From Bacteroides caccae (GTDB taxonomy: Bacteria > Bacteroidota > Bacteroidia > Bacteroidales > Bacteroidaceae), in assembly GCF_002222615.2 (NCBI RefSeq), contig NZ_CP022412.2, positions 1,116,001-1,180,000 on the forward strand: 64,000 nucleotides of DNA, in the 5' to 3' direction. A program made the position numbers and the translations under genes. Each line of letters starts with the position of its first letter. Within the stretch, counting starts at the first letter, position 1. A model generated the notes under the pieces. That model made no database searches and was not told the origin of the DNA. It saw only the letters and a list, made by a program, of their open reading frames with translations. This document shows positions 6,658-62,898 of the stretch, one piece after another.

Positions 6658-9525
6658 ATGAAGAAAGATATTTGTTTTATACTACTGTTTCTGTTTGTAA
6701 CAGCTTCTTCGGCTTTCGCACAACTCATAGGATTTGAGAGTAGTGAGGTACCCGAAGCATTTAAGACTTCCGGAAAGGGAGAGGCGAAAATTTCTTCTCT
6801 TTTCTATAAAGAGGGTAAAAGTAGCTTGGAGTGGGATTTCCAATCCGGTTCAACTTTGAATGTACAGATACCTCCTTTATCATTAAAAGGAAAAACGGAG
6901 AGACAGTATGGCATTACCTTGTGGATATATAATGAAAAGCCACAGCAGGATTCTATTCGTTTTGAATTCCTGAATAAGGCGGGAGAGGTGTCTTATTGGT
7001 TTGCTTATCATCTGCAAGCAGCAGGGTGGCGGGCTTGCTGGATTTCTTTCGAATATATGCAAGGCGATAAGAAGGACAAAGATATTGTAGCTTACAGGTT
7101 AGTTGCCCCCCAACGCAAAGGACGTATTTTTCTTGACCGTCTGATATTCCCGGAAAAGAAGATGAATCTTCGTACCACTCCGGATCAGCAGTTGCCGACT
7201 AATAATGGCTTGGCTAACCGTGACCTCTGGCATTGGTGCCTGGTATGGAAGTGGGAGCAACTGTCGTATGATACTCCATTGGCATCCAAGTTGACTGCTC
7301 GACAGGCGAAAGACCTGAAAACAATCGAGCAACGTCTGACAGATTTTCTGGAAGTGAAAAAAGCCCCTAAAAAGCAAGTTGATGCCGCTTACGAGACATT
7401 TAAAAGAGCGGATATCCGCCCGTCGGCAGCAGGTACGGGATTTACGGGAACACCTATTGTAGCTCCGGACGAACAGAATAAGAAGATAGGAGAGATGTCG
7501 TGGAATGATATTGAAACAATGCTTTCCGGTTTTGCGTATGACGTTTATTGCAATCGAAACGAGACATCAAAGAAAAACTACTTCACGGTGTTTGATTATG
7601 CTATTGACCAGGGATTTGCCTTTGGTAGCGGTATGGGAACCAATCATCATTATGGTTATCAGATACGTAAGATATATACGACGGCATGGTTGATGCGAGA
7701 TGAGATCTATAAACATCCCCACAGGGATGCTTATTTGTCGACATTACGTTTCTGGTCTGCTTTGCAGGAGACTCGTCAACCGTGTCCTTTGGAACGGGAT
7801 GAAATGCTGGATACTTGGCATACGCTTTTAATGGCGAGATTTATCTCTGCTATGATGTTCACGGATGCAAGAGAGCAGGCGCAGGCTTTGGAGGGCCTCT
7901 CCCGTTGGGTTTCTTCTTCTTTACACTATTCACCGGGAACAATTGGTGGTATTAAGATAGATGGCACAACTTTTCACCATGGTGGTTTCTATCCGGCATA
8001 TACGACCGGAGTGCTGGCCGTAATAGGGCAATTCATTGCTTTTACTAACAATACGGATTTTGAACTGACGGAAGAAGCCCGGCAACATATAAAATCCGCA
8101 TTTATTGCCATGCGCAATTATTGTAATCTTTATGAATGGGGAATTGGTATCAGCGGACGTCATCCTTTCGGTGGAAAAATGGGGAATGATGATGTGGAAG
8201 CATTTGCCAATATAGCTTTAGCCGGTGATTTGTCCGGTCGGGGGAATACGTTCGATCATGCTCTGGCAGCAGATTATCTACGGTTAGTACGTGATAGGGA
8301 TACTCCGAATGCGCGTTTCTTTAAGAAAGAAGGCATCAAGCCTGCACAAGCTCCACAAGGATTTTTTGTTTATAATTACGGTTCGGCAGGTATTTTCCGC
8401 CGTGCAGATTGGATGGTGACACTAAAAGGATATACTACTGATGTTTGGGGGGCTGAAATCTATACAAAAGATAATCGTTACGGACGTTATCAGAGTTATG
8501 GTTCGGTGCAGATCATGGGAAAAGGAAACCCCGTTTCCCGTACCGGAAGCGGCTTTGTACAGGATGGTTGGGATTGGAACCGCCTGCCGGGTACGACTAC
8601 TATTCATTTGCCCTTCGAGTTGCTGGATAGTCCGTTAAAGGGTACTACCATGGCTCATTCCAAGGAAAACTTCTCCGGTAGCAGTTCCTTGGAAGGCAAG
8701 AATGGCATGTTTGCTATGAAGTTAATGGAGCGTAATTTGGAAAACTTCACTCCTGATTTTGTTGCCCGTAAATCTGTATTCTGCTTCGACAACCGGATGA
8801 TTTGTCTGGGAACCGGCATAACGAATAGTAATGCCGATTATCCTACGGAAACGACTCTTTTCCAGACGAAATACAACGGCGGAGAACAGAAAGTGGGTAA
8901 TGACGGCTATTGGTTACATGACGGTTATGACAATTACTATCATGTAGTAGACGGAACAGTTCGTTCGCAGATCGCGGAACAAGAATCACGTCATGAGAAA
9001 ACCCGTGCGGTCACTAAAGGAAAATTCTCCTCTGCATGGATAGAGCATGGTAAAGCTCCGAAGAACGGAACTTATGAATATATGGTATTGATACAGCCTT
9101 CTGCAGCGGACTTGGACGACCTTCAGAAAACTCCTGCGTATGAAGTCCTGCAACGTGATCAAACGGCTCATGTCGTTTATGATAAGAAAACAGGTATTAC
9201 GGCGTATGCGGTTTTTGAGGCTTATCAGCCGGTAACTGATAAGGTGATTGCTTCTATTCCTGCTGAAACAATGGTGATGTATGCGAAAGAAACCGGTAAA
9301 GGAGTTCGTTTGAGTGTTTGTGACCCAAACTTGAATATAAAAGAAAAGGCGTATACGACGAAAGAACCTAGCCGTCCTATTTATAAGAAAATACTACTCA
9401 AAGGTCGTTGGACGCTAAAGAATTCAATGGAAAATGTCCGGTTGGAGCGACAAGGAAATGATACACAATTGACGGTAACCTGCCAGCACGGACAACCTGT
9501 TGAGGTATTAATGGAAAACAAGTGA
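6658..9525 (+). CDS. Polysaccharide lyase family 8, chondroitin sulfate ABC-type lyase
   Basis: 955 aa with a signal peptide (about residues 1-21, ending ASSAFA). A beta-sandwich carbohydrate-binding-like N-terminal region is followed by an alpha/alpha toroid and C-terminal beta-sandwiches, the usual PL8 layout and length of chondroitinase ABC. Candidate catalytic residues: His441 and Tyr448 in HHGGFYPAYTTG (spacing 7, the same as His501/Tyr508 in Proteus chondroitinase ABC I), Arg501 in ISGRHPFGG, and a Glu near 600 in WGAEIYTKDN. It cleaves chondroitin sulfate or hyaluronan by beta-elimination, giving unsaturated disaccharides for the GH88 and sulfatase encoded just upstream. It is the last gene of the operon and is followed by a good terminator. 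Confidence 0.93.
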   Translation: MKKDICFILLFLFVTASSAFAQLIGFESSEVPEAFKTSGKGEAKISSLFYKEGKSSLEWDFQSGSTLNVQIPPLSLKGKTERQYGITLWIYNEKPQQDSIRFEFLNKAGEVSYWFAYHLQAAGWRACWISFEYMQGDKKDKDIVAYRLVAPQRKGRIFLDRLIFPEKKMNLRTTPDQQLPTNNGLANRDLWHWCLVWKWEQLSYDTPLASKLTARQAKDLKTIEQRLTDFLEVKKAPKKQVDAAYETFKRADIRPSAAGTGFTGTPIVAPDEQNKKIGEMSWNDIETMLSGFAYDVYCNRNETSKKNYFTVFDYAIDQGFAFGSGMGTNHHYGYQIRKIYTTAWLMRDEIYKHPHRDAYLSTLRFWSALQETRQPCPLERDEMLDTWHTLLMARFISAMMFTDAREQAQALEGLSRWVSSSLHYSPGTIGGIKIDGTTFHHGGFYPAYTTGVLAVIGQFIAFTNNTDFELTEEARQHIKSAFIAMRNYCNLYEWGIGISGRHPFGGKMGNDDVEAFANIALAGDLSGRGNTFDHALAADYLRLVRDRDTPNARFFKKEGIKPAQAPQGFFVYNYGSAGIFRRADWMVTLKGYTTDVWGAEIYTKDNRYGRYQSYGSVQIMGKGNPVSRTGSGFVQDGWDWNRLPGTTTIHLPFELLDSPLKGTTMAHSKENFSGSSSLEGKNGMFAMKLMERNLENFTPDFVARKSVFCFDNRMICLGTGITNSNADYPTETTLFQTKYNGGEQKVGNDGYWLHDGYDNYYHVVDGTVRSQIAEQESRHEKTRAVTKGKFSSAWIEHGKAPKNGTYEYMVLIQPSAADLDDLQKTPAYEVLQRDQTAHVVYDKKTGITAYAVFEAYQPVTDKVIASIPAETMVMYAKETGKGVRLSVCDPNLNIKEKAYTTKEPSRPIYKKILLKGRWTLKNSMENVRLERQGNDTQLTVTCQHGQPVEVLMENK

Positions 9526-9584
9526 TTAGATGATAAGATTTGTAGTTTAAGAGGGGTATTAGTTACTATGTTTCTATGAAACAG

Positions 9585-9616
9585 AAAGACCGGCTCATTA
9601 CGAACCGGTCTTTTTT
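9585..9616 (+). terminator. Intrinsic terminator after PL8 gene
   Basis: AAGACCGG pairs with CCGGTCTT across an 11-nt loop, followed by a run of T residues (9611-9616). It lies between the convergent PL8 and cysS genes. Confidence 0.88.
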
Positions 9617-9653
9617 ATCTGTAGAAGGGATTTATCTCCCTGATGTTTAATAT

Positions 9654-11135
9654 TTATTTATTCAATCTCCACTCAAAACCGTCTTTTGTATCTTTGATTT
9701 CGAATCCGAGGGCTGTTAATGTGTTACGGATTTCGTCGGAAGTAGCCCAGTCTTTGTTGGCTTTTGCTTTCATACGCTGTTCCAGCAACATATCCACCAC
9801 TTTACCATAGGCATTTTCACGACTGTCGGAAGAACCTTTTTCTTCTTTCAATCCCATAATGTCAAAGCAGAACAAGTGGAAAGTTTCTTTCAGCTCTTTC
9901 AAGTCTTCAGCGGAGATCGTTGCATTGCCGGCAATGACGTTATTAATGATGCGGGCACCTTCAAAAAGCTGTGCGATGACAATTGGAGTATTCAGGTCGT
10001 CATTCATGGCTTCGTAGCATTTGGCACGCAGCTCTTTTACATTGATACCTTCTGAAGTTGCGGATGCAGGGGTAACCTTTCCCAATCCATCGATAGCTTC
10101 TATCAGACGTTGCAATCCCTTTTCGGAAGCAATCAGTGCTTCATTGCTGAAATCGACCGTACTGCGGTAGTGGGCTTGCAGGATGAAGAAGCGGATTGTC
10201 ATTGGAGTATAGGCTTGGGTCAGCAACTTATGTGTGCCATTGAAGAACTCATCCAATGTGATGAAGTTGCCGAGTGATTTACCCATTTTCGTTCCGTTAA
10301 TGGTAATCATGTTGTTATGCATCCAGTAGTGAACCATATCGTCGCCTTGTGAGGCTACTGATTGTGCTATTTCACACTCATGATGCGGGAAAATCAGGTC
10401 CATTCCTCCGCCGTGAATGTCGAAGTGCTCACCCAGATATTTGCGTCCCATAGCGGTACATTCGGCATGCCAGCCGGGGAAACCGTCGCTCCAAGGAGAT
10501 GGCCAGCGCATGATATGTTCCGGCTGTGCCTTTTTCCAGAGGGCGAAATCGGCGGGATTACGCTTTTCACTTTGTCCGTCAAGGTCGCGGGTGGTGTTCA
10601 GTACATCATCCAGATTGCGTCCGGAAAGTTTTCCGTAGTGATGATCCTTGTTATATTTGGCTACATCGAAATAGACGGAGCCTTCACTTTCGTAAGCATA
10701 TCCGGCGTCCAGAATCTTCTGTACCAGTTGGATTTGTTCGATGATATGGCCCGAAGCATGAGGTTCGATACTTGGAGAGAGCACGTTGAGGGCTTCCATT
10801 GCTTTATGGTAGCGGTTCAGATAGTACTGAACGACTTCCATTGGTTCCAGTTCTTCCAGACGGGCTTTCTTGGCAATTTTGTCTTCTCCTTCGTCGGCAT
10901 CATGTTCCAAATGACCTACGTCAGTGATATTGCGTACATAACGTACTTTATATCCTAGATGAGTGAGATAACGGAAGAGTACGTCGAAAGTAATGGCCGG
11001 GCGTGCATGTCCCAGATGCGCATCACCGTAAACAGTCGGTCCGCACACATACATACCTACATGAGGTGCGTGGAGCGGTACGAATAACTCTTTTTTTCTA
11101 TCTAACGTGTTGTAAATGGTCAGTTGATGTTCCAT
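9654..11135 (-). CDS. cysS: Cysteinyl-tRNA synthetase
   Basis: 493 aa, normal length for the family. The class I HIGH motif is HLGH (residues 40-43) inside [18 protein letters not shown]. The KMSKS loop appears as KMGKS (in TKMGKSLGN). Zinc ligands are visible: the Cys at 31, the Cys in HAECTAMG, and His/Glu in HHECEIAQ. It charges tRNA-Cys in the cytoplasm. Single-gene unit with a -7 box about 30 bp upstream. Confidence 0.97.
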
Positions 11136-11165
11136 AACGTTTGCTATTTATTCGATTTAAAACCA

Positions 11166-11173
11166 CAAAATTA
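11166..11173 (-). promoter_or_regulatory. -7 box for cysS
   Basis: TAATTTTG on the minus strand matches TAnnTTTG, about 30 bp before the cysS ATG at 11135. The -33 element is unclear. Confidence 0.5.
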
Positions 11174-11201
11174 GAATAAATCTTTGATATATTACGATAA
11201 T

Positions 11202-52558: not shown

Positions 52559-53383
52559 TTATTGGGGCTCCGCATAGAGCTGATATTCATTAAACCTTTC
52601 ATTCTTGATTAATACGATCCTTGATTTTGGAGTAATCCATATACATAGAGGATAGGTGTTTTCTTCTTTATACACGAATAACTCTTCGCGTTTTTTGAGG
52701 AGAATATCATCCGTTTCGTCATAAATAGGAGTTGTATTATATAGCGAATTTATATAGTCAGTGAGTATTTTTTTACTTCGTATAAGAAAGGCGGGTCTGT
52801 CGTTCTTTTCCTTGTCGCGAAGATACACGGATACAGAAGGGATTCCTTGATGCATATCCTCATACGTGATAAATTCATAATCGTTTAAAACATCTTCGTA
52901 TCCTGTCGCATGTCCGATAGAGCCTTTTATGTCTTTCCAATTATAGCAAAGAAAATCTTTAGTGTTCGTAATCTCTATTTCTACGGTGTCACTGCTGATT
53001 ACTTCTTTGTTTTTGTATCCTGACACATACGCTTTGTATTTTCCCGGGCTATAAAAAGAATGAGACCATTGACGTATGAAATTGGCGCTACCTTCTGTAT
53101 GTTTGAATATTTTCAGGCTACCGTCTAAATTAGAAACTTTCCACGTGATTGAATCGTAAATGTCGAATAGAGAAAACATAATGAAATAATCATTGGGAAA
53201 TAAGCCAAAAACGGCATAATCGAAAATGTTTTTCCGTGTGTCTTCTATCTCTAATTTTAACGGAATGATTTTCTCCGTATTATTTTCCTCCTCGTCGTTT
53301 ATCTCAGGAAATGTGCTGTTGTCCGTATCTGAGCATGACGAGATAAATAATAAAATGAACAAAACATTAAGTAGATTTTTCAT
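52559..53383 (-). CDS. Hypothetical lipoprotein
   Basis: 274 aa. A short hydrophobic start ending LLFISSCSD gives a clear lipobox (Cys17). The next residues are Glu/Asp/Asn-rich, as in surface-exported Bacteroides lipoproteins. A beta-rich region with WKVSNLDG and SPGKYKAYVSGYKN looks Ig/PKD-like. No enzymatic motif. It lies 83 bp downstream of the membrane-protein gene of the ATPase operon without an obvious promoter of its own, so it may be part of that transcript or an unrelated boundary gene. Confidence 0.7.
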   Translation of the reverse strand: MKNLLNVLFILLFISSCSDTDNSTFPEINDEEENNTEKIIPLKLEIEDTRKNIFDYAVFGLFPNDYFIMFSLFDIYDSITWKVSNLDGSLKIFKHTEGSANFIRQWSHSFYSPGKYKAYVSGYKNKEVISSDTVEIEITNTKDFLCYNWKDIKGSIGHATGYEDVLNDYEFITYEDMHQGIPSVSVYLRDKEKNDRPAFLIRSKKILTDYINSLYNTTPIYDETDDILLKKREELFVYKEENTYPLCIWITPKSRIVLIKNERFNEYQLYAEPQ

Positions 53384-53466
53384 AATGGCGTTTAGTTTAG
53401 TGTGTTAATAATCTAGTTTGTGGTGCGTAATTCCCAATATAAAAATATGAGGATATACTTTATTGA

Positions 53467-54528
53467 TTATGTTGAATGTTCTGCGAGCAGTTGCTTCAGA
53501 CCATTTTTAAAGTTGTCTAATGCATAATTTGTACTTTTGAGTGCTTCAAGGAATTTTTCATACATTTCTTTATCGGTTTCTTCTGCTTTATTTCTCATAT
53601 AAAGACAAAACTTCTTTTCAAGTTCTTCGGTAGTGTTTGTCAAGTCACTCAAAAGGCGTAATACTTTGCGATTTGAAATTGTTATTTTAATTTGGTCGCA
53701 GGATATAATTAGGAACACAATCAGTGAATGAAATGAGGTATCTGGTTTGTAATTCCTGTGCTGATTGTAGTATATATATATCTTGTCGAAAGCACTACTT
53801 GTTTTCATGACAATATCATACACGCATTGGTCCCGCTCTGCAGATTCCGGAAATGAGGTAGAGGAGAAGTTACAAAGAGTGCTTAATAAATGCAACAGAA
53901 ACATGATCTTTGACTGTCCTTCCACTTCTATCAATTGTTTTTCTAATTGATCAGCTTGTTCTTTTGTCGCTTTTTTAATTTTGGTATCAAATTCGTTTTT
54001 GTCTTCCTCAAATATTTTTTTATAGTAGTTTCCTGACTTTTGGAGCTCTCGTTTCTCGAATTCTCTCTTCTTGAAATCAATAAGGCTGAGAAACATTGGC
54101 AGCCCGATGCTTATGATTCCCATGAGTACTGCCCAAACGGTTATCCATAGGTTTAAATTATTCATTTCTCTGGATAGACGGGTGTCAGCAACTGTTTGGA
54201 TTTCTCCGAGTTTCATTGAATAATGTTTGTCTATTTGTTTGATAATGGATTCTAAAAGTATGGCAGTAACATTTGAGTCTGTTTTTTGTATGAGTGGCAA
54301 GTCGATGACAACATCTTTTGTCAAGGAATCAAACTTCTTGGCACATGCTTTATTGTGTTCGTTTATCTTATAACTAATGTTGAATAAAGCACAAATAAAG
54401 ATACCCAACACTATTATAACAATGCATATATTAAATCGTTTGATAGCTGAAATCTCCCAATGGAATTTTTCATATTCAATTTTATCTTTATCGTTTTCTA
54501 CCTTTTGTATATCTTTATTTTCACTCAT
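53467..54528 (-). CDS. Two-helix membrane protein with cytoplasmic coiled coil, third gene of a candidate defence operon
   Basis: 353 aa, not recognised as a known family. Helix 1 is about residues 33-52 (ICIVIIVLGIFICALFNI) and helix 2 about 127-150 (LWITVWAVLMGIISIGLPMFL), with a loop of about 75 residues between them. After helix 2 there is a charged coiled-coil stretch (153-205) and a helical C-terminal domain to 353. The start overlaps the ATPase gene by 8 bp, implying coupled translation. A membrane-anchored effector behind an ATPase sensor would fit a defence system. This is inference. Confidence 0.75.
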   Translation of the reverse strand: MSENKDIQKVENDKDKIEYEKFHWEISAIKRFNICIVIIVLGIFICALFNISYKINEHNKACAKKFDSLTKDVVIDLPLIQKTDSNVTAILLESIIKQIDKHYSMKLGEIQTVADTRLSREMNNLNLWITVWAVLMGIISIGLPMFLSLIDFKKREFEKRELQKSGNYYKKIFEEDKNEFDTKIKKATKEQADQLEKQLIEVEGQSKIMFLLHLLSTLCNFSSTSFPESAERDQCVYDIVMKTSSAFDKIYIYYNQHRNYKPDTSFHSLIVFLIISCDQIKITISNRKVLRLLSDLTNTTEELEKKFCLYMRNKAEETDKEMYEKFLEALKSTNYALDNFKNGLKQLLAEHST

Positions 54529-56881
54529 CGTTTCTCTCGTTTAAATTGAATACTAAGTTACTTATCTCAAAGTTACTGTCGGGCGCAGCTTCTTTATGTG
54601 GTAATAGCGAATGGAACATAAAGTATTTGCGATAGTCATTTTTATGAAACTCTTTGATCTCGTCGGTGATACTTTTAAATACAAGTTCGTCATGCGTAAA
54701 GATGACAAGCTGTAATTTACTTCCGATTTTGTCCGGTTGTTCGCTATTATCTTTCCCGTTTTCGAAAATGCTCTTGTATGCTGTAAGTATTGCTTTAACA
54801 AAATGCTTAATGTTTCTCCTGTTGTGGAAATCGCTAGCATAAAAGATGTCATCCAGCATAATAGGCAATTTTACTTTGAGTTTCTCCATCACGGCAAATG
54901 AGAACGCCATATTCAGGATTGTGTTGAAAAGGTGGAATCTGAAAGTGTTGAAGTGCTTTTTTACCGAGATAGTGCTTCCGCTTGTCTTGTCTTGTATCAT
55001 ACAAGCTAGATATTTGTTCTCTTTTGAATCTGTAGCAGGAGTATATTTACCATTTTCTTCTTTGATTAACATATTGTCCCAAGTCCAGATAAGTTCTTCG
55101 TCTTCACTGAGGAAGTGTGACATTATATTTTGTATAATGTCTCTGTTGATTCTGCTCACTTCCTCTTGTAATTTGGATGATATCTTCTTGTTTATGATTT
55201 TATAAATCTGGTATGCATCCTGCTTAATACATTGAATGAGATTGTATTGACTGATTCTGTCCTGATATTCTTTTTGAGCCAACTCTAAGGCATGGATTTC
55301 TTTTGCTAATTGGTCGTTTTCTTTTACTCTGTTGATTAACTCTTTTGACGAATATGTGTTATATGTTTCGATGATTTTCGACAATTGTAATGCACCGATA
55401 AGTTCATTCCTTTCTTTTTCCCATTTGGGCAGAGTGGGAATCAGTTCCATTGTGATGAAGGAGAGGATTTCCCTGCAATTATTTTTCAAAGCGTTCAAGC
55501 CGCTTATTGTTATGGGAACTGCGTTATCTTTATCTTTCTGTATATGATCGATTACATTGTAGAAGTCATCGTCTATTTGTTTTAATATGTTATGGATGTA
55601 TTCGTCTTTAAACCTTAAGTTTTGGAGAGGAAGACTGTCTTTTATATATTTTATTTCCGCATCAATCTTTTCCCGGAGTTCGTGTATGTTATTAAGTGCT
55701 CTGACCAGATTATCCAGTTGGGTGATTATCTTCCTTTCGCTGTTTACTCCTATAGGAGTTGTATCAGAAATGTTCTTCTTGCCTGTCGACAGTGTGAATT
55801 CTGAAATAATACTTGCAAGGTGAATGATTTTATTTGCATGCTCTATGGTTTTATTGACATCCGGCATTGTTAAAACCTCAGGAAGATTGTAGAGGAAATT
55901 TTTCAAAGATTGCTCTCCGGGTTTTAAATTCATTAAAAAGTCGATATGCGTGAAGAATTCATTATTCCTTTTGATAGTGTCCCGTTTGGCATCAATCTCT
56001 TCGCTACTGATATTCTCCTCTACTTTGATATTAGACTGGTAAATGGCAAGCTTATAGACTAACCTGTTGAGCCAATTCAATTCGCCCATATCCAGCGCGT
56101 TGGCTATTTGCATTCTCAAGGAGTCGTGGCCGCCATGTTCAATCTTCATTTGCCCCAGGCGTATTACTTCATATTCAGAGATAAAAAAGCCATATTTGAG
56201 GCAATTGGATAGTACTCCTTGTTCCGCTTGTAGGGGTATTTCATTCGTAAATTCTTTTTGGGAACCATTTACCCACATTTTTACGTTTACATCATTACAT
56301 GTCCAATTAGACATATATCTCTTAAATTTACCGGCTTCTGTATCTTCTCTTTTGCCATAGTCGCGTAAACGTGCTTCACCGATTTCTTTTCTGTATATAT
56401 ATTCGATGCCTTGGTATACGGAACTTTTTCCTACTCCGTTTACTCCCAGTATAATGGCTGAACAAGGGTTTTCATCCTCCGGAGAATATTTGAAAGATAC
56501 TCCGTAAGGATATTGGTTATCTCCTTTTCCCGGAAATTTGCGGAAGTTCTCAAAAGAGATTTTGGCGATTCTAAAGTCTTCATTGATTAGTTCCGGGTTA
56601 AACACTGCTTCCCAATCGATATTTATATCTTTTTCTTCGTCGATAAAACAGGAATTTCTGTCATATACAGGATCGAATGTACTACTGTCAGCAGTATCTG
56701 CCTTATCTTCTTCTCTATTTGCCGGTTTGCCGAATATACGTTTGCAAATTTTGTTTATAACAAGAAATTCATTCCCTCCTTTTCCGATAGTATAATTTAA
56801 AAATAAATGTTTTACCAATCTGTTTTGGGGAATCTTTTTCATTAATTCGGTCAGTAGTTTTTCATAGTTTTTTTGTGCCAT
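54521..56881 (-). CDS. SMC/RecF-like AAA ATPase, second gene of a candidate defence operon
   Basis: 786 aa. About 100 N-terminal residues precede the ATPase. RIAKISFENFRKFPG is the RecF/SMC-type start of the ATPase. Walker A is GVNGVGKSS (146-154). A long helical, coiled-coil-rich middle (about 250-600) separates it from Walker B in PIMLDDIF (Asp677-Asp678), followed by a switch-like FTHDE (728-732). A canonical LSGGE signature is not evident. Instead, FNTFRFHLFNTILNMAF lies before Walker B. This split head and coiled-coil layout is seen in OLD, PtuA, Lamassu and other SMC-like defence ATPases. It lies 15 bp after the PRTase-like gene. Confidence 0.85.
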   Translation of the reverse strand: MAQKNYEKLLTELMKKIPQNRLVKHLFLNYTIGKGGNEFLVINKICKRIFGKPANREEDKADTADSSTFDPVYDRNSCFIDEEKDINIDWEAVFNPELINEDFRIAKISFENFRKFPGKGDNQYPYGVSFKYSPEDENPCSAIILGVNGVGKSSVYQGIEYIYRKEIGEARLRDYGKREDTEAGKFKRYMSNWTCNDVNVKMWVNGSQKEFTNEIPLQAEQGVLSNCLKYGFFISEYEVIRLGQMKIEHGGHDSLRMQIANALDMGELNWLNRLVYKLAIYQSNIKVEENISSEEIDAKRDTIKRNNEFFTHIDFLMNLKPGEQSLKNFLYNLPEVLTMPDVNKTIEHANKIIHLASIISEFTLSTGKKNISDTTPIGVNSERKIITQLDNLVRALNNIHELREKIDAEIKYIKDSLPLQNLRFKDEYIHNILKQIDDDFYNVIDHIQKDKDNAVPITISGLNALKNNCREILSFITMELIPTLPKWEKERNELIGALQLSKIIETYNTYSSKELINRVKENDQLAKEIHALELAQKEYQDRISQYNLIQCIKQDAYQIYKIINKKISSKLQEEVSRINRDIIQNIMSHFLSEDEELIWTWDNMLIKEENGKYTPATDSKENKYLACMIQDKTSGSTISVKKHFNTFRFHLFNTILNMAFSFAVMEKLKVKLPIMLDDIFYASDFHNRRNIKHFVKAILTAYKSIFENGKDNSEQPDKIGSKLQLVIFTHDELVFKSITDEIKEFHKNDYRKYFMFHSLLPHKEAAPDSNFEISNLVFNLNERNDE

Positions 56882-56896
56882 ATATCAAGAAATATA

Positions 56897-59392
56897 TTAG
56901 TAAAAGTAAAAACTCTTTTCGAAGATATTTTTGCAGATTTGTTGCAGAATATCATTTCTCAAGCTTTCTTTTTTTAAAACAAAATCATAAAGTCTTTTGA
57001 TGTTGTTGTCTTCTAATTCTGTTTGGATAATATCATTATTCTTAAGCATGGGAATTTCTGATCTAATTGTGCTATATGCTGAACATAATAGAATTGCCAA
57101 TTGGAATTTTCCATCGAGCTCTTTGTCAAAAGCAAAGGCCTTTCCTTCTTGCTCTTTCTGTAATATAGTTGCCCAATATTTATTGTTCTCATTTCCTGGC
57201 TCTTCTGTCAATTTGTTTATTTTTGTCAATAAGTTGTTGTCCAAATCTCTGTAATTCTTAATGTATTCATAAAGAAATTTATAACATTCGGAACTACTGT
57301 AATCATTGCTTGTATTGTGAAATTCTGTCATGCACTTTTCAAACCTACTTTTCCAAAGCTTTAGTAGTTCTATCTGAATTTCCTTAGTCTCTTCTTTGCT
57401 TAATCCGAATAAAGAGAGTTTGAAAATATAGTTTTTCATTTCATAAAATGTATCGAGTATGCGTGCAAAGGCAGAGGACAGTTCATTATAAGCGTTTTCG
57501 AAGCTATGTGGATAATATATATGCTCTGTTATACATCCTGATATTTCGTAGCTGTCGTAGCTTTCTTTCATATAATCGTGATCAATCAGCCAACGTGTAA
57601 TCGGGATACATTGGTTTTGTTTCTGATCGGGCGCTATTGCAGCACAATACATTGGCATATCATCCTTGACGGGCATCAGATATCTTTTGAAAGAATAGTC
57701 CGATAATCCATATAGTTCTTTGTTGTCAAGTGAATTGGTCAGGGCCTGCAAGAGATATGTTTCCAAAATAGTCTTTGGTACGGAAGATACACTAAGTTTC
57801 TTTTTCAGTTGTACAATAAGTGAGAGACTTAAGTTTATCATTTCGATAAACTTAGGAATCCTTTCTCCGGAGCGGAACATACGTGTCCACATCGATTTAC
57901 GTTCAGGGGAAGATAACTTGATATATTTAGGCACTACACTCCCTTCATCAATTTGCGCATCCATGGCTATATGTAAATCTTTTTCAAAGTCGATGTCGGT
58001 CTTATGTACAAGGATATTGTTGTATAATCCCCGGTAGGTGATGCCATATCTGAGGCGGGCGTACTTGTTGGACGCTGTCTGATTTCTGCTCGCATTGTCT
58101 ATCAATTCATGTTGGCAGAAAAAATGCCAGGAGACAAACTCATTGATAGCGGTAGAACCTGCGAACTTTCCCGATAATGCTTGGGAAAATGAGTTAACAT
58201 AGTTGGCAGGGATAACCATTTCTTCAAGTCCATTGACATAGATAGGACTATAATCAATGAATAAAGGAGTCATGATGTCATTGCTCTTAAACCAAGTTTC
58301 TATACAAGGGTATAGTTCTTCTGCCAATTCGTATCCGATTAAAAAGCGTATGTCTTTGGGGTCAAGATGTTGGCTGGTGGCGTTGACGGACAAAAGGAAG
58401 TTGTCTAATGCCTTTTTGTTTTTGATATATAAATTAATAGACAGCAAGTAATTTATCCATATAACCAAACTTCTTTCTGTCTGATAGACAATATATTCTT
58501 CGTCCTCGTTGTTAGCTTCTAAATCAAGAAGATGAGATACACGATTGTAAACCTTTCTGTATAAATCTTTGTGCTGATCGGGAAGGAATAAATCAAATTT
58601 ACTTAGTGCATCCGTTGTTAATGGATAGGGAGAGAAAGGCACAATTCTGAGTTCATTCCGGGTCTCGTTAAGGAAAAATCTTATTTTGCTGAATTCTGGA
58701 TCTGTAGACTGTGCATTTCTTTTGTTTATAGGATAAAACAATATTGTCCAACTTTTTCTTGTTGCATTCTCTCCGTTTTCCAATAGAACAGGTTCGTCCA
58801 ATGAATAAATTTGTGCTTCGGGGAAGTTCTCTTCCAGTGCAGTTTGTATTTTATTTTCGTCGAACTCTCCTGGATGATATATGATAGGGAATTCTAAATC
58901 ATAAGGTCCTCCTTTAAGGAATGCTGACATTTCATAATTGACGAATGTGACTGCTTGCTGCTCATTTCCGGTCCGGAAGTACATATTGATATTTAGGTTT
59001 TCCAGTCTGTTGTTTTCTAAGAGAAAAAGGGTAGCGTTTTTTATATTGATCTTGTTACATTCATTCGCATTTTCAGATTGAGAAATATTGTTTAAATTTT
59101 TTATAAGTGTCTCTATCTTTTTGAATGTGCTTCCATAGAACACACTGTCGTCAATTAGTAAATAATTATGCTTTGGGGGCATTTGTGCAAAATGAAAAGG
59201 CAGAGCATGTTCTGTTATTACTTTATCCCAGATCGAAGGAGAAAACGTCTTGCTTTCCCGAAGGATGACGTCAATTAAACGGGGGCACTTACGTGCTATA
59301 GCCACAATATAGTCATATTGTGGCGCTGTCAAGAGACTTAACCATTTCATGGCTTCTTCTCCAAAAGTTCCCATAAACGCAGACCTAACCAT
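56897..59392 (-). CDS. Large protein with phosphoribosyltransferase-like N-terminus, first gene of a candidate defence operon
   Basis: 831 aa. YDYIVAIARKCPRLIDVIL (residues 26-44) and NYLLIDDSVFYGSTFKKIETLI (76-97) match the first strand/loop and the PRPP-binding loop of type I phosphoribosyltransferases (hydrophobics, D-D, x4, G-S-T). About 700 residues with no motif I recognise follow, mostly helical with frequent aromatic and charged residues. PRTase-like folds occur in some bacterial conflict and stress systems. It leads an operon with an SMC-like ATPase and a membrane protein. ATG 59374 is an alternative start. Catalytic activity is unproven. Confidence 0.75.
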   Translation of the reverse strand: MVRSAFMGTFGEEAMKWLSLLTAPQYDYIVAIARKCPRLIDVILRESKTFSPSIWDKVITEHALPFHFAQMPPKHNYLLIDDSVFYGSTFKKIETLIKNLNNISQSENANECNKINIKNATLFLLENNRLENLNINMYFRTGNEQQAVTFVNYEMSAFLKGGPYDLEFPIIYHPGEFDENKIQTALEENFPEAQIYSLDEPVLLENGENATRKSWTILFYPINKRNAQSTDPEFSKIRFFLNETRNELRIVPFSPYPLTTDALSKFDLFLPDQHKDLYRKVYNRVSHLLDLEANNEDEEYIVYQTERSLVIWINYLLSINLYIKNKKALDNFLLSVNATSQHLDPKDIRFLIGYELAEELYPCIETWFKSNDIMTPLFIDYSPIYVNGLEEMVIPANYVNSFSQALSGKFAGSTAINEFVSWHFFCQHELIDNASRNQTASNKYARLRYGITYRGLYNNILVHKTDIDFEKDLHIAMDAQIDEGSVVPKYIKLSSPERKSMWTRMFRSGERIPKFIEMINLSLSLIVQLKKKLSVSSVPKTILETYLLQALTNSLDNKELYGLSDYSFKRYLMPVKDDMPMYCAAIAPDQKQNQCIPITRWLIDHDYMKESYDSYEISGCITEHIYYPHSFENAYNELSSAFARILDTFYEMKNYIFKLSLFGLSKEETKEIQIELLKLWKSRFEKCMTEFHNTSNDYSSSECYKFLYEYIKNYRDLDNNLLTKINKLTEEPGNENNKYWATILQKEQEGKAFAFDKELDGKFQLAILLCSAYSTIRSEIPMLKNNDIIQTELEDNNIKRLYDFVLKKESLRNDILQQICKNIFEKSFYFY

Positions 59393-59431
59393 TTTTCTGT
59401 AATCCTGTTGCTTTTCTAATCAAAATGATTC

Positions 59432-59439
59432 CAAAGTTA
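59432..59439 (-). promoter_or_regulatory. -7 box for the PRTase-ATPase-membrane operon
   Basis: TAACTTTG on the minus strand fits TAnnTTTG, about 40 bp before ATG 59392. No -33 match. It is the only candidate promoter I find for the operon. Confidence 0.5.
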
Positions 59440-59556
59440 CAATAAATTTGTATATTCTCGTATATTTCATGGTATTTTATTTTTTTTCAAGAGAATTATT
59501 GGGCATGCCTTGAATTTTTGAACCTATGTTTCACTATTGATACAAATTTTAGTATG

Positions 59557-60165
59557 CTAAATATAGTATCCCGCCCCTGCAACATAGATAGGTTGCGTAG
59601 GCTTCCCAATATTTTGCAGCTTACCTTCTGCCTTTAGCCTGCGTATTTGCCGGCTGGCCATACTTTGAGTGAAGCTGCAAAGAGACTGCATATTAGTACG
59701 AGTCAAGACAGGATGCGTTGCAAAATATTCCGTGAGTTTCCGGTCAATTTCTTCTTCTGAAAGAGAGGCGGAATGCGGTTTATATTTCGAACGCCGCAGG
59801 TGTGTGGTCATACACAAACTTTTCAAGTCTCTGTCGGCCTGGAAGTTGATGGATTTTAGTTTCACTTTGTCGGCACGGGTAGTAAGTGAGTGTATGGGTT
59901 CGGCGGCTTGCAACGTGATTTGAAAATACCCGATCCCGTCCAGATGCACTCTTTCTCCTTCGCGCAGATGATTGCCCATGCATCTGCTCAGTTCCATTAA
60001 CATTGCCTCTACTTCTGCTTTTCCGAAAGTAGTTGCCATGTGGATTTCTTTTGCTAGTCGCTGAGTAGTGACATGTTGAAAATTAACTACGCGAGGGTGG
60101 TAGCTTGGTTCTTCCCCTTCTTTTTCCGGTTGGGGATTCTTATAAAACTCGAATTGTATTGCCAT
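59557..60165 (-). CDS. HU/IHF-like DNA-binding protein with C-terminal helical domain
   Basis: 202 aa. The N-terminal about 105 residues are the HU-like fold variant of Bacteroidetes: TTQRLAKEIHMATTFGKAEVEAMLMELSRCM (helices) then LREGERVHLDGIGYFQITL (beta arm). The C-terminal part, VLTRTNMQSLCSFTQSMASRQIRRLKAEGKLQNIG, has the form of a winged helix. It probably binds and bends DNA. Divergent from a VirE-type primase-helicase across a 603-bp region with 22-bp repeats. A promoter at 60362-60393 would place those repeats in its leader. Confidence 0.87.
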   Translation of the reverse strand: MAIQFEFYKNPQPEKEGEEPSYHPRVVNFQHVTTQRLAKEIHMATTFGKAEVEAMLMELSRCMGNHLREGERVHLDGIGYFQITLQAAEPIHSLTTRADKVKLKSINFQADRDLKSLCMTTHLRRSKYKPHSASLSEEEIDRKLTEYFATHPVLTRTNMQSLCSFTQSMASRQIRRLKAEGKLQNIGKPTQPIYVAGAGYYI

Positions 60166-60393: not shown

Positions 60394-60482
60394 TAAATGC
60401 TTAGTTGTTTATACGTAAATAATAGTTTAATTTCATATTGGATAAGGTTATCCGGCATTAGGTAAGCAGAGTTGTGCTGACT

Positions 60483-60515
60483 ATGAGAAATACTCTGAAA
60501 AACAATGAGAAATAC
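60483..60515 (+). repeat. ATGAGAAATAC direct repeats, 22 bp apart
   Basis: ATGAGAAATAC at 60483-60493 and 60505-60515. Related copies follow at 60547-60557 (hairpin arm), 60620 (ATGAGAAT) and 60628-60638 (ATGAGAAATGA). The same motif is repeated in the 11.4-11.58 kb gap. Confidence 0.6.
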
Positions 60516-60543
60516 CCGAATTTTGAGCCGAGATGTGGAATAA

Positions 60544-60583
60544 ACTATGAGAAATGCCTGTTTGAAAAAGTATTTCTCATAGT
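60544..60583 (+). repeat. ATGAGAAAT hairpin (copy 2 of a shared element)
   Basis: ACTATGAGAAATGC (60544-60557) pairs with GTATTTCTCATAGT (60570-60583), 13 Watson-Crick pairs and one G-T pair, loop 12 nt. The inner 11 nt of each arm equal those of the hairpin at 11465-11504. The outer pairs differ on both sides in a compensating way (ACT/AGT here, CGA/TCG there). Confidence 0.7.
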
Positions 60584-60685
60584 ACATCTATTTGATTGAC
60601 TACACTTTAACTGAAAAGTATGAGAATATGAGAAATGAAATTGAAAAATCTTTTCTAGTAGAAAGAAGAACCAGCGCTTTTAAAA

Positions 60686-60768: not shown

Positions 60769-62898
60769 ATGAGAATAACACAAATTAGAGACGACGGCAG
60801 AGTGAACACTTTGCGGACGTTGAAAATCGAACAGCTCGTGGAGCAAATGAAAGTGGAAACTAAAGCACAACTCGTCTCAGGAATGAGAGAAGTCCTGCCT
60901 TATATATTTCCGGGAGATAAAAATGACTATGTACAGAAAGTGCCGAAGTTGCTTCCTGCGGCTGCCTTTGTCCGTAAGAATGGGGTAATGACAATGGACG
61001 AGTACAACGGAGTGGTGATGCTTCAAGTGAACAATCTCTCCGGACCTATGGAAGCGGATGAGGTGAAAGAACGTGTGAAGGAGTTTCCGCAGACCTATCT
61101 TGCTTTTACCGGTTCTTCCGGAAAGTCGGTAAAGATATGGGTACGCTTTACTTATCCTGACGATCTTTTGCCGGGCAACCGTGAGCAAGCGGAACTTTTC
61201 CATGCGCACGCTTACCGGCTCGCCGTGAAATTTTATCAACCGCAGCTTCCTTTCGATATCGACTTGAAAGAACCTTCACTAGAGCAATATTGTCGTCTGA
61301 CCTTCGACCCCGAACTGTATTTTAATCCCGAAGCGATGCCTGTCTATATGAAACAGCCTATGGCTATGCCGGGAGAAACGACCTATCGCGAACAGGTGAA
61401 GGCGGAAACCTCGCCTTTGCAACGGCTTGTACCGGGATATGAGAGTTATAAAGCTCTTTCCGTACTTTTTGAGGCGGCTTTTGCGCGGGCTTTGGATGAG
61501 CAGCATGGCTATCAGCCGGGAGATGATATACATTCCTTGCTGGTTTGTCTGGCCGGACATTGTTTTCGTGCCGGTATTCCCGCAGAGGATACAGTGCGGT
61601 GGACTCGTGCCCATTACCGCTTGCCGGATGATGAATTTCTGATCCGTGAGACAGTGCAGAATGTATATCGCACTTGTAAAGGGTTTGCGGATAAAAGCAG
61701 TCTGCTGCCGGAACAACTGTTTGTGATGCAAATGGATGAGTTTATGAAACGTCGTTATGAGTTTCGTTTCAATCAGTTGACCTCGCAAGTGGAATGCCGG
61801 CAACGGAACAGTTTTGATTTTTATTTTCGTCCGGTAAATAAGAGGCTGATGGCAAGTATTACCATGAATGCGCAATACGAAGGGCTTAAATTGTGGGACA
61901 AAGACGTGGTGCGTTATCTGAACTCAGATCATGTGCCGGTTTATCAGCCTATTGAAGAGTTCCTTTATGATCTCCCCCGTTGGGACGGCAAAGATCACAT
62001 CGGAGATCTGGCAAAGCGGGTTCCTTGCAATAATCCCCATTGGGCACAGTTGTTCCGTCGTTGGTTTCTCAGCATGATAGCTCATTGGCGTGGACTGGGT
62101 AAAAATCATGCAAACAGCACTTCGCCTATATTAGTCGGTCCGCAGGCTTACAGGAAATCTACGTTTTGCCGCCTGATTCTACCGCCGTGTTTGCAGGCGT
62201 ACTATACGGATAGCATTGACTTTAGCCGGAAACGGGATGCGGAGTTGTATCTGAATCGTTTTTTGCTGATTAATATGGATGAGTTTGACCAGATAGGTAT
62301 CAATCAGCAGCCTTTCCTTAAACATATCATGCAAAAGCCGGTCGTTAATACACGGCGCCCGAATGCTTCGGCGGTAGAAGAACTTCGCCGCTACGCTTCT
62401 TTCATCGGAACAAGCAATCATAAGGATTTGCTGACAGATACTTCCGGCAGTCGTCGTTATATAGGTGTGGAGGTTACGGGAGTGATTGATGTGGTTCGTC
62501 CTGTTGATTATGAACAGCTTTATGCGCAGGCAATGGCGGCGCTCTATCACAATGAACGGTATTGGTTTGACGAAAAGGAAGAAGCCATTATGACGGAAGC
62601 CAATCAGGAGTTTGAACAGTCACCGCTTATCGAACAGCTGTTTCTTGTGTATTACCGCGTTGCGGACGATGAGGAAGAAGGAGAGTGGATACTTGCTGCC
62701 GATATATTGCAACGGATACAAAAGGCGAGTAAAATGAAATTCTCTTCCGGTCAGGTGAACTATTTCGGACGTATTCTGCAACGGTTGGGAGTGAAATCGT
62801 ACAGGAAAACGCGCGGAGTTTATTATCATGTGGTGGCTGTCGCTCAAAAAGAGATACAGGGTAATTGCGAAAGACTTACCGGAAGAAAGACTTTATGA
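60769..62898 (+). CDS. VirE/BT4734-type primase-helicase
   Basis: 709 aa. The N-terminal about 300 residues resemble the BT4734-like (primase-polymerase-like) domain: YLAFTGSSGKSVKIWVRF and LPFDIDLKEPSLEQYCRLTFDP. The C-terminal half is a VirE/DUF3874 ATPase: DLPRWDGKDHIGDLA, PILVGPQAYRKSTFCRLILP (Walker A region), NRFLLINMDEFDQIG (Walker B), and SFIGTSNHKDLLTDTSGSRRYIGVEV. The Walker A reads GPQAYRKST, not the usual GxxGxGK(S/T), though Lys-Ser/Thr is kept. Related proteins serve phages, plasmids and integrated elements in DNA replication. No integrase, relaxase or structural gene is in the window. Confidence 0.9.
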   Translation: MRITQIRDDGRVNTLRTLKIEQLVEQMKVETKAQLVSGMREVLPYIFPGDKNDYVQKVPKLLPAAAFVRKNGVMTMDEYNGVVMLQVNNLSGPMEADEVKERVKEFPQTYLAFTGSSGKSVKIWVRFTYPDDLLPGNREQAELFHAHAYRLAVKFYQPQLPFDIDLKEPSLEQYCRLTFDPELYFNPEAMPVYMKQPMAMPGETTYREQVKAETSPLQRLVPGYESYKALSVLFEAAFARALDEQHGYQPGDDIHSLLVCLAGHCFRAGIPAEDTVRWTRAHYRLPDDEFLIRETVQNVYRTCKGFADKSSLLPEQLFVMQMDEFMKRRYEFRFNQLTSQVECRQRNSFDFYFRPVNKRLMASITMNAQYEGLKLWDKDVVRYLNSDHVPVYQPIEEFLYDLPRWDGKDHIGDLAKRVPCNNPHWAQLFRRWFLSMIAHWRGLGKNHANSTSPILVGPQAYRKSTFCRLILPPCLQAYYTDSIDFSRKRDAELYLNRFLLINMDEFDQIGINQQPFLKHIMQKPVVNTRRPNASAVEELRRYASFIGTSNHKDLLTDTSGSRRYIGVEVTGVIDVVRPVDYEQLYAQAMAALYHNERYWFDEKEEAIMTEANQEFEQSPLIEQLFLVYYRVADDEEEGEWILAADILQRIQKASKMKFSSGQVNYFGRILQRLGVKSYRKTRGVYYHVVAVAQKEIQGNCERLTGRKTL

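Follow-up and report, generated by a model that had tools for sequence, protein, structure and literature searches.

In a 64,000-nucleotide stretch of the Bacteroides caccae genome (contig NZ_CP022412.2, positions 1,116,001 to 1,180,000; hereafter the window), three minus-strand open reading frames (ORFs) of 831, 786 and 353 aa at positions 53467-59392 encode a protein with a phosphoribosyltransferase (PRTase)-like N-terminal domain, a Rad50/SMC/RecF-type ATPase and a predicted two-helix membrane protein. We observed that the three genes stay together at three loci and that one congener lacks them between the corresponding flanking genes. This three-gene block corresponds to none of the defence systems in the collections searched, and the chances that it represents a Bacteroidales system of the immune type, horizontally mobile and directed against phages or plasmids, seem to us evenly balanced. 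The initial annotation of the window, which had proposed a candidate undescribed defence or stress operon, gave a gap of 15 bp and an overlap of 8 bp between the genes, and both values are exact. The parts of that proposal concerning a conserved unit that matches no named system stood, whereas its account of the components lacked two likely winged helices.

56897..59392, minus strand: gene 1, 831 aa; N-terminal type-I PRTase-like domain, then a helical region and two winged-helix domains (predicted) (ORF call, AlphaFold2 model, Foldseek, VIA-align, 22-row alignment)
54521..56881, minus strand: gene 2, 786-aa Rad50/SMC/RecF-type ATPase; a helical insert splits the ATPase head into two halves
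53467..54528, minus strand: gene 3, 353 aa; two strongly hydrophobic helices, followed by a long C-terminal part

Conservation of the unit and its absence in a congener

The order PRTase, ATPase, transmembrane (TM) protein was found at all three loci with a readable neighbourhood: the window, locus L082 of Parabacteroides pacaensis (with proteins identical to the relatives P0006 and P0068) and locus L002 of a Bacteroidales metagenome-assembled genome. The co-occurrence on which the initial annotation would have its proposal judged was thus present wherever it could be read. The L082 proteins are 44.0, 40.6 and 27.8% identical to the PRTase, ATPase and TM proteins of the window, and those of L002 25.5, 25.6 and 21.1%, protein 3 being the least conserved of the three. 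Because two of the three loci were found by the PRTase alone, their partner genes constitute independent evidence; the membrane protein of L002 was accepted because of its position, length and topology. Linkage is also hinted at by relatives of different genes whose longest contigs are of equal size (P0002/P0078, 7647 bases; P0003/P0066, 34507; P0005/P0069, 8473) and by the similar member counts (885, 715 and 744) of the clusters nearest to the window's three proteins. A match of the membrane-protein profile beside a PRTase in genome G590 was an antisense ORF, and we discarded it as due to chance.

The surroundings of the unit differ between the loci. It lies between a glycan cluster and HU/VapE genes in the window and among fimbrillin-like genes (ORF reading) in L082, and in L002 it is followed directly downstream, at 8432-11192, by the Gabija system: PADLOC detected GajA (E 4.5e-237) and then the start of GajB (E 1.2e-66), which is cut by the locus end. 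The distribution is sparse. The PRTase profile matched one of 201 genomes of the family, one of 393 of the order and one of 395 of the phylum, in these overlapping samples each time only the window's own genome. Among 123 genomes of another family (that of G304) the single match was L082, and a scan of genome contigs yielded one relative among six stretches.

The flanks were compared with those of seven relatives' loci whose VapE gene is closest to the window's, taken from the 48 of 60 genomes with a match. At one of the seven (L041, in the congener G639) the two flanks, with DNA identities of 73% (lipoprotein-like gene) and 84% (HU-VapE stretch), follow one another, and their aligned ends are about 240 bp apart, compared with 6.1 kb in the window.

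53426..59562, no strand: segment without counterpart in G639 (L041), where the aligned flank ends lie about 240 bp apart
52559..53383, minus strand: left boundary gene, a 274-aa lipoprotein-like protein (a reading of its N-terminus), intact in G639 and in two ORFs in G627
59557..60165, minus strand: right boundary gene, an HU-HIG DNA-binding protein (Pfam, E 2.9e-35)

The empty site in one congener, the sparse distribution, the Rad50/SMC-type ATPase and the Gabija system beside one distant copy are the indirect grounds for reading the cassette as a defence system. An operon for DNA repair, stress or the cell envelope that lies by chance near surface-structure loci appears improbable. Genes for surface structures do adjoin the cassette in the window and in P. 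pacaensis (ORF reading), and Rad50/RecF-type ATPases are repair proteins; however, sparse distribution and absence in a congener would be unusual for repair genes, and the L002 copy stands beside Gabija.

Several observations weigh against a mobile defence system. No relatives were found in viral contigs (queries A1, A5, P0011 and P0022), in phages (query, the window protein) or in plasmids (queries, the window protein, P0014 and P0022). A known defence system adjoins only one locus of the three. No named defence gene was seen directly beside the cassette in the window or L082, as judged by ORF reading and, for the window, also by Pfam on three neighbours, PADLOC not having been applied to the neighbours at these two loci. 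The membrane protein of L002 was matched weakly, with an E value of 8.1e-6 when a 4-sequence profile was used (0.0032 for the best chance ORF) and only 0.0047 with a 3-sequence profile (579 ORFs). Moreover, the left flank is different or broken in the other six of the seven loci, so the empty site derives from one genome. L047 retains the left gene as two ORFs, with further ORFs in between, L045 has kept only the glycosyltransferase-type genes from farther left, in opposite orientation, and no left-flank match was found at L042 (which ends after 5.4 kb), L043, L044 or L046.

The three proteins

The type-I PRTase fold of the N-terminal domain of protein 1, suggested in the initial annotation, is supported by the AlphaFold2 model together with Foldseek and VIA-align. 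Conservation was assessed on 22 aligned PRTase rows; P0004 (which has a BT4734 domain and is probably chimeric) and P0009 (partial) were left out of the 23 matches.

59276..59299, minus strand: residues 32-39, IARKCPRL, at the place of the pyrophosphate (PPi) loop of PRTases
59126..59152, minus strand: residues 81-89, DDSVFYGST, phosphoribosyl pyrophosphate (PRPP)-loop motif
57869..58147, minus strand: residues 416-508, predicted winged helix 1, element order a-b-a-a-b-b (DSSP of the AlphaFold2 model)
57635..57853, minus strand: residues 514-586, predicted winged helix 2 (DSSP of the AlphaFold2 model)

By comparison with PRTase motifs, IARKCPRL would be the equivalent of the PPi loop, and its R34 and K35 are present in 22/22 rows. 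In the PRPP loop D81, D/E82, G87 and T/S89 are each kept in all 22. The order of secondary-structure elements given by DSSP makes it likely that protein 1 carries two winged helices, and 11 of the 23 invariant alignment columns fall at residues 450-509 (G450, D478, I481, D482, G484, V487, P488, Y490, R504, F506 and G509). When compared with the sequences of solved structures, the PRTase profile retrieved a single chain (E 0.21). The most distant PRTase relatives, P0021-P0023 (511-643 aa), retain the motifs, but most of the C-terminal region is absent from them, and they may represent a simpler relative of protein 1.

Purine (HGPRT-type) PRTases have a catalytic Asp within the PRPP loop. The corresponding position 85 is occupied by Y, L, I, F or M in 22/22 rows and by an acid in none, which makes catalysis by protein 1 uncertain and also counts against our reading. 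Since the PRPP loop is kept and this acid is absent, protein 1 may either be an enzyme of an unusual kind or serve to sense nucleotides. The strongest rival, which we regard as possible but unlikely, is that the PRTase domain senses a nucleotide (PRPP or an alarmone) in the manner of PurR; the nucleotide pool would then gate the system, the ATPase would read DNA and the membrane protein would be the lethal effector. The retention of the PRPP loop, R34 and K35 without the acid is consistent with this, as are the two predicted winged helices, the first of which holds the 11 invariant columns, and the presence of PyrR regulators and a protein with bound ppGpp (an alarmone) among the 50 VIA-align rows. 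However, the latter are tied with many true enzymes (VIA-align covers only chains ranked by Foldseek, so absence there is uninformative), and several genuine PRTases also lack that Asp. PurR of Bacillus subtilis is a regulator in which a PRTase domain is joined to a winged helix. Protein 1 resembles it in combining both in one polypeptide but differs in its opposite domain order, in its two predicted winged helices and in sharing an operon with genes for an ATPase and a membrane protein. We favour defence with an enzymatic PRTase. We regard as rather unlikely a composite in which a Rad50-like DNA sensor is coupled to a PRTase-fold protein with two winged helices in tandem, either an enzyme or a sensor of the nucleotide pool, and to a two-helix effector in the membrane, and in which firing requires abnormal DNA and a disturbance of the PRPP/nucleotide pool at the same time.

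For protein 2, AlphaFold2 and the fold search support a Rad50/SMC/RecF-type ATPase fold and agree with the motifs, including the Walker A and Walker B that the initial annotation had given for an SMC/RecF-like ATPase. The alignment comprised 11 rows; 41 of 50 matches were dropped because they duplicate the window's own protein in full or truncated form (97-100% identical).

56420..56446, minus strand: residues 146-154, Walker A, GVNGVGKSS
54938..54967, minus strand: residues 639-648, S.....NTFR, where the ABC signature would lie; S639, N645, T646, F647 and R648 invariant in 11/11 rows
54830..54865, minus strand: residues 673-684, Walker B and D-loop, PIMLDDIFYASD

The canonical ABC signature is of the LSGGQ type, and the zinc hook of Rad50 is a CxxC motif. 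An LSGGQ-type signature is absent from all 11 rows, and S.....NTFR, found instead, would by its position be the equivalent. Of five ATPases examined, those of the window, L002, P0066 and P0068 have no CxxC hook; the fifth, the distant relative P0072, contains CPFC at residues 371-374, which resembles the hook of Rad50. The Pfam model SMC_N gave 18.3 bits with protein 2, under its 40-bit cut-off, and the ATPase profile matched Rad50 weakly among sequences of solved structures (best E 0.0011). Within the genus 6 of 158 matched this profile, and only the window's own match was strong, the other five having E values from 5.1e-9 to 7.6e-4. Two of these five (L005 and L006) were rejected because they are different SMC-type ATPases, with a methylase-like and a helicase-like gene as neighbours.

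Protein 3, a two-helix coiled-coil membrane protein in the initial annotation, has two strong hydrophobic helices, and they recur in all four sequences examined (the window, P0078, P0080 and L002).

54373..54429, minus strand: residues 34-52, predicted TM helix 1 (hydropathy)
54088..54144, minus strand: residues 129-147, predicted TM helix 2 (hydropathy)

Weaker hydropathy peaks (1.3-1.8) are present in the C-terminal part of all four, and the protein may therefore span the membrane more than twice. The search with protein 3 gave seven matches, of which four were dropped as 100% identical to the window's protein and two (P0078 and P0080) were distinct from it. The motif LSREMNxLNLWxTxW runs up to and into TM helix 2, also in P. 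pacaensis; LSREMNxLNLW is kept in 4/6 aligned rows, with LSRGMNNLNLW in P0074 and a weaker form in L002.

Comparison with known systems

None of the three proteins passed a Pfam or NCBIfam cut-off, so annotation with these libraries would not name the cassette, and PADLOC and PHROGs gave weak, partial matches only for the window proteins. Notable among the weak matches were, for protein 3, PycTM (PADLOC; 14 bits, E 0.0081), TIGR04561 'membrane protein' (18 bits, cut-off 30) and DUF4866 (15.6 bits, cut-off 25) and, for protein 2, AbiLi (17.2 bits, E 5.1e-4) and LmuB (14.5 bits), both in PADLOC and around Walker A. When the 22 PRTase rows were scanned with PADLOC and Pfam, only single-member matches appeared (best E 0.005; ShosT 0.011 in one row). 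The initial annotation had recognised no named system, and none was matched in the libraries searched. Full-text searches of a partial literature collection returned no title or abstract that we recognised as describing this three-gene combination. In PMC13092281 a figure legend includes a PRTase in its labelling of validated Escherichia coli systems, and kinship to the cassette is possible.

Like the cassette, the Lamassu/ABC-3C (DdmABC) systems comprise three genes, built around a Rad50/SMC-like ATPase that is partnered by an enzyme (PMC10586767, PMC12409362), whereas the cassette has a PRTase and a two-TM protein in place of an effector with a C-terminal domain (effector-CTD) and a small middle component. 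A new Lamassu/ABC-3C branch, with an LmuB-like ATPase, a PRTase effector and the membrane protein as middle component, is in our view quite improbable. Besides the three-component layout, the Foldseek search with the ATPase speaks for it, since a type II Lamassu LmuACB chain (653 aa, presumably LmuB) appeared at rank 21 (E 4.7e-6), and so do weak PADLOC LmuB matches in 10/11 ATPases, the best being 48.0 bits with PDLC03859 (L002). However, Rad50 ranked higher in the same search, and the 48.0 bits are background because in a calibration on 148 genomes ORFs of at least 900 aa scored about 29-72 bits with PDLC03859 among the matches listed. Among the same matches some ORFs of 565-850 aa received 70-108 bits and the three best loci 243-378 bits; the model matched in 14/14 control genomes. 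These three Lamassu-type loci contain effector-CTD-like, small middle and ATPase ORFs, with no PRTase or two-TM gene seen by ORF reading. As a candidate LmuB the window ATPase was rejected, with 14.5 bits from PDLC03868 and no match at E <= 1 with PDLC03859. Neither LmuA/LmuC (PADLOC) nor the Pfam ABC-3C families matched the window proteins at E up to 1, and when A6 and A8 were compared by hhalign with a single Lamassu-type locus, the probabilities were 0.2, 0.2 and 0.6%, a weak test with only one sequence on one side.

In PMC12548924, PRTase/winged-helix genes are described as typical of type III-A1 retrons. Type III-A retrons would be alike in their PRTase and winged-helix effector genes (same source), the winged helices of the cassette being predicted from DSSP only. 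They differ in that the cassette has an ATPase and a membrane protein and no reverse transcriptase nearby: none lies beside the PRTase, and the only RVT_1 match of the genome is about 0.88 Mb away. For the msr-msd ncRNA of type III retrons, no Rfam match reached the gathering score within the window (Rfam coverage of retrons is unchecked). Protection against T7 and lambda is described in PMC9122126 for the DprA-PRTase system of P2-like phages, and DprA-PRTase/ShosTA is similar in that a PRTase is partnered with a DNA-binding protein (same source). The DprA family was absent from the Pfam results for the three cassette proteins and three neighbours, and no window protein matched ShosT at E <= 1 in PADLOC. 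The ShosT model was rejected as a bridge, being unspecific with matches in 57/61 genomes. From Rad50/SbcC, SMC and RecF the cassette differs by the diverged signature, a window ATPase without a CxxC hook and the lack of an Mre11-like gene.

Surroundings of the cassette and possible mode of action

Beyond the lipoprotein-like gene on the left lie glycosyltransferase-type genes (ORF reading), and to the right of HU-HIG a BT4734-like_N/VapE/DUF3874 gene (Pfam). The G+C content is 42.0% in the first 37 kb of the window, 32.5% in the glycan cluster, 35.5% in the cassette, 45.6% in the HU gene and 46.9% in the VapE gene. The low-G+C island, noted as compositionally distinct in the initial annotation, therefore starts well ahead of the cassette.

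59432..59439, minus strand: TAACTTTG, a weak Bacteroidota -7-like box 47 nt before the start of gene 1

No -33 box was found with this box upstream of gene 1, and the promoter scan remained at shuffle level (30 found, 30.4 expected). Terminator-like sites numbered 9 against 4.6 expected, 8/9 of them on the other strand.

The BT4734/VapE gene (window 60769-62898) is multicopy: 48/60 genomes of the genus, counting that of the window, had matches, with up to 12 per genome and four in the window's own. Next to HU a similar 517-aa ORF occurs at L043 3530-5083, L044 11957-13510 and L046 11901-13454, and that of L043 is composed of AAA-ATPase_like and PDDEXK_9. This slot has the appearance of an accessory-gene hotspot. 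Upstream of HU there is a repeat of about 105-160 bp that is partly palindromic.

60480-60649: repeat copy of the window
Relatives' repeat copies: L041 13358-13462; L042 3380-3494; L043 3401-3515; L044 13525-13639; L046 13481-13637; L047 13601-13753

An inverted copy is located just downstream of HU in six of the seven relatives' loci (weak in L046, E 0.001; the sole copy found in L047), with none in L045. In the window no inverted copy follows HU, and it is there that the cassette sits. The repeat may mark the insertion site.

If the cassette is a defence system with an enzymatic PRTase, the Rad50/SMC-like ATPase would scan DNA and undergo an ATP-driven change of state on an abnormal structure or a replication intermediate of an invader. 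The PRTase-winged-helix protein would be its enzymatic partner, held at the DNA or the ATPase through the winged helices. Once released, protein 1 could act on PRPP and an acceptor, either draining nucleotides or modifying a nucleotide or macromolecule, and the two-helix membrane protein might anchor the complex or permeabilise the membrane.

PRTases recur as effectors in retrons and in the DprA-PRTase system, and the mode of action of retron PRTases was called unknown in 2022 (PMC9122126). Here a PRTase with sharply conserved residues is combined with a Rad50-like ATPase and a membrane protein, and neither a reverse transcriptase nor DprA accompanies it. If our reading is true, PRTase-type immunity would gain another kind of sensor and a route to the targets of these domains.

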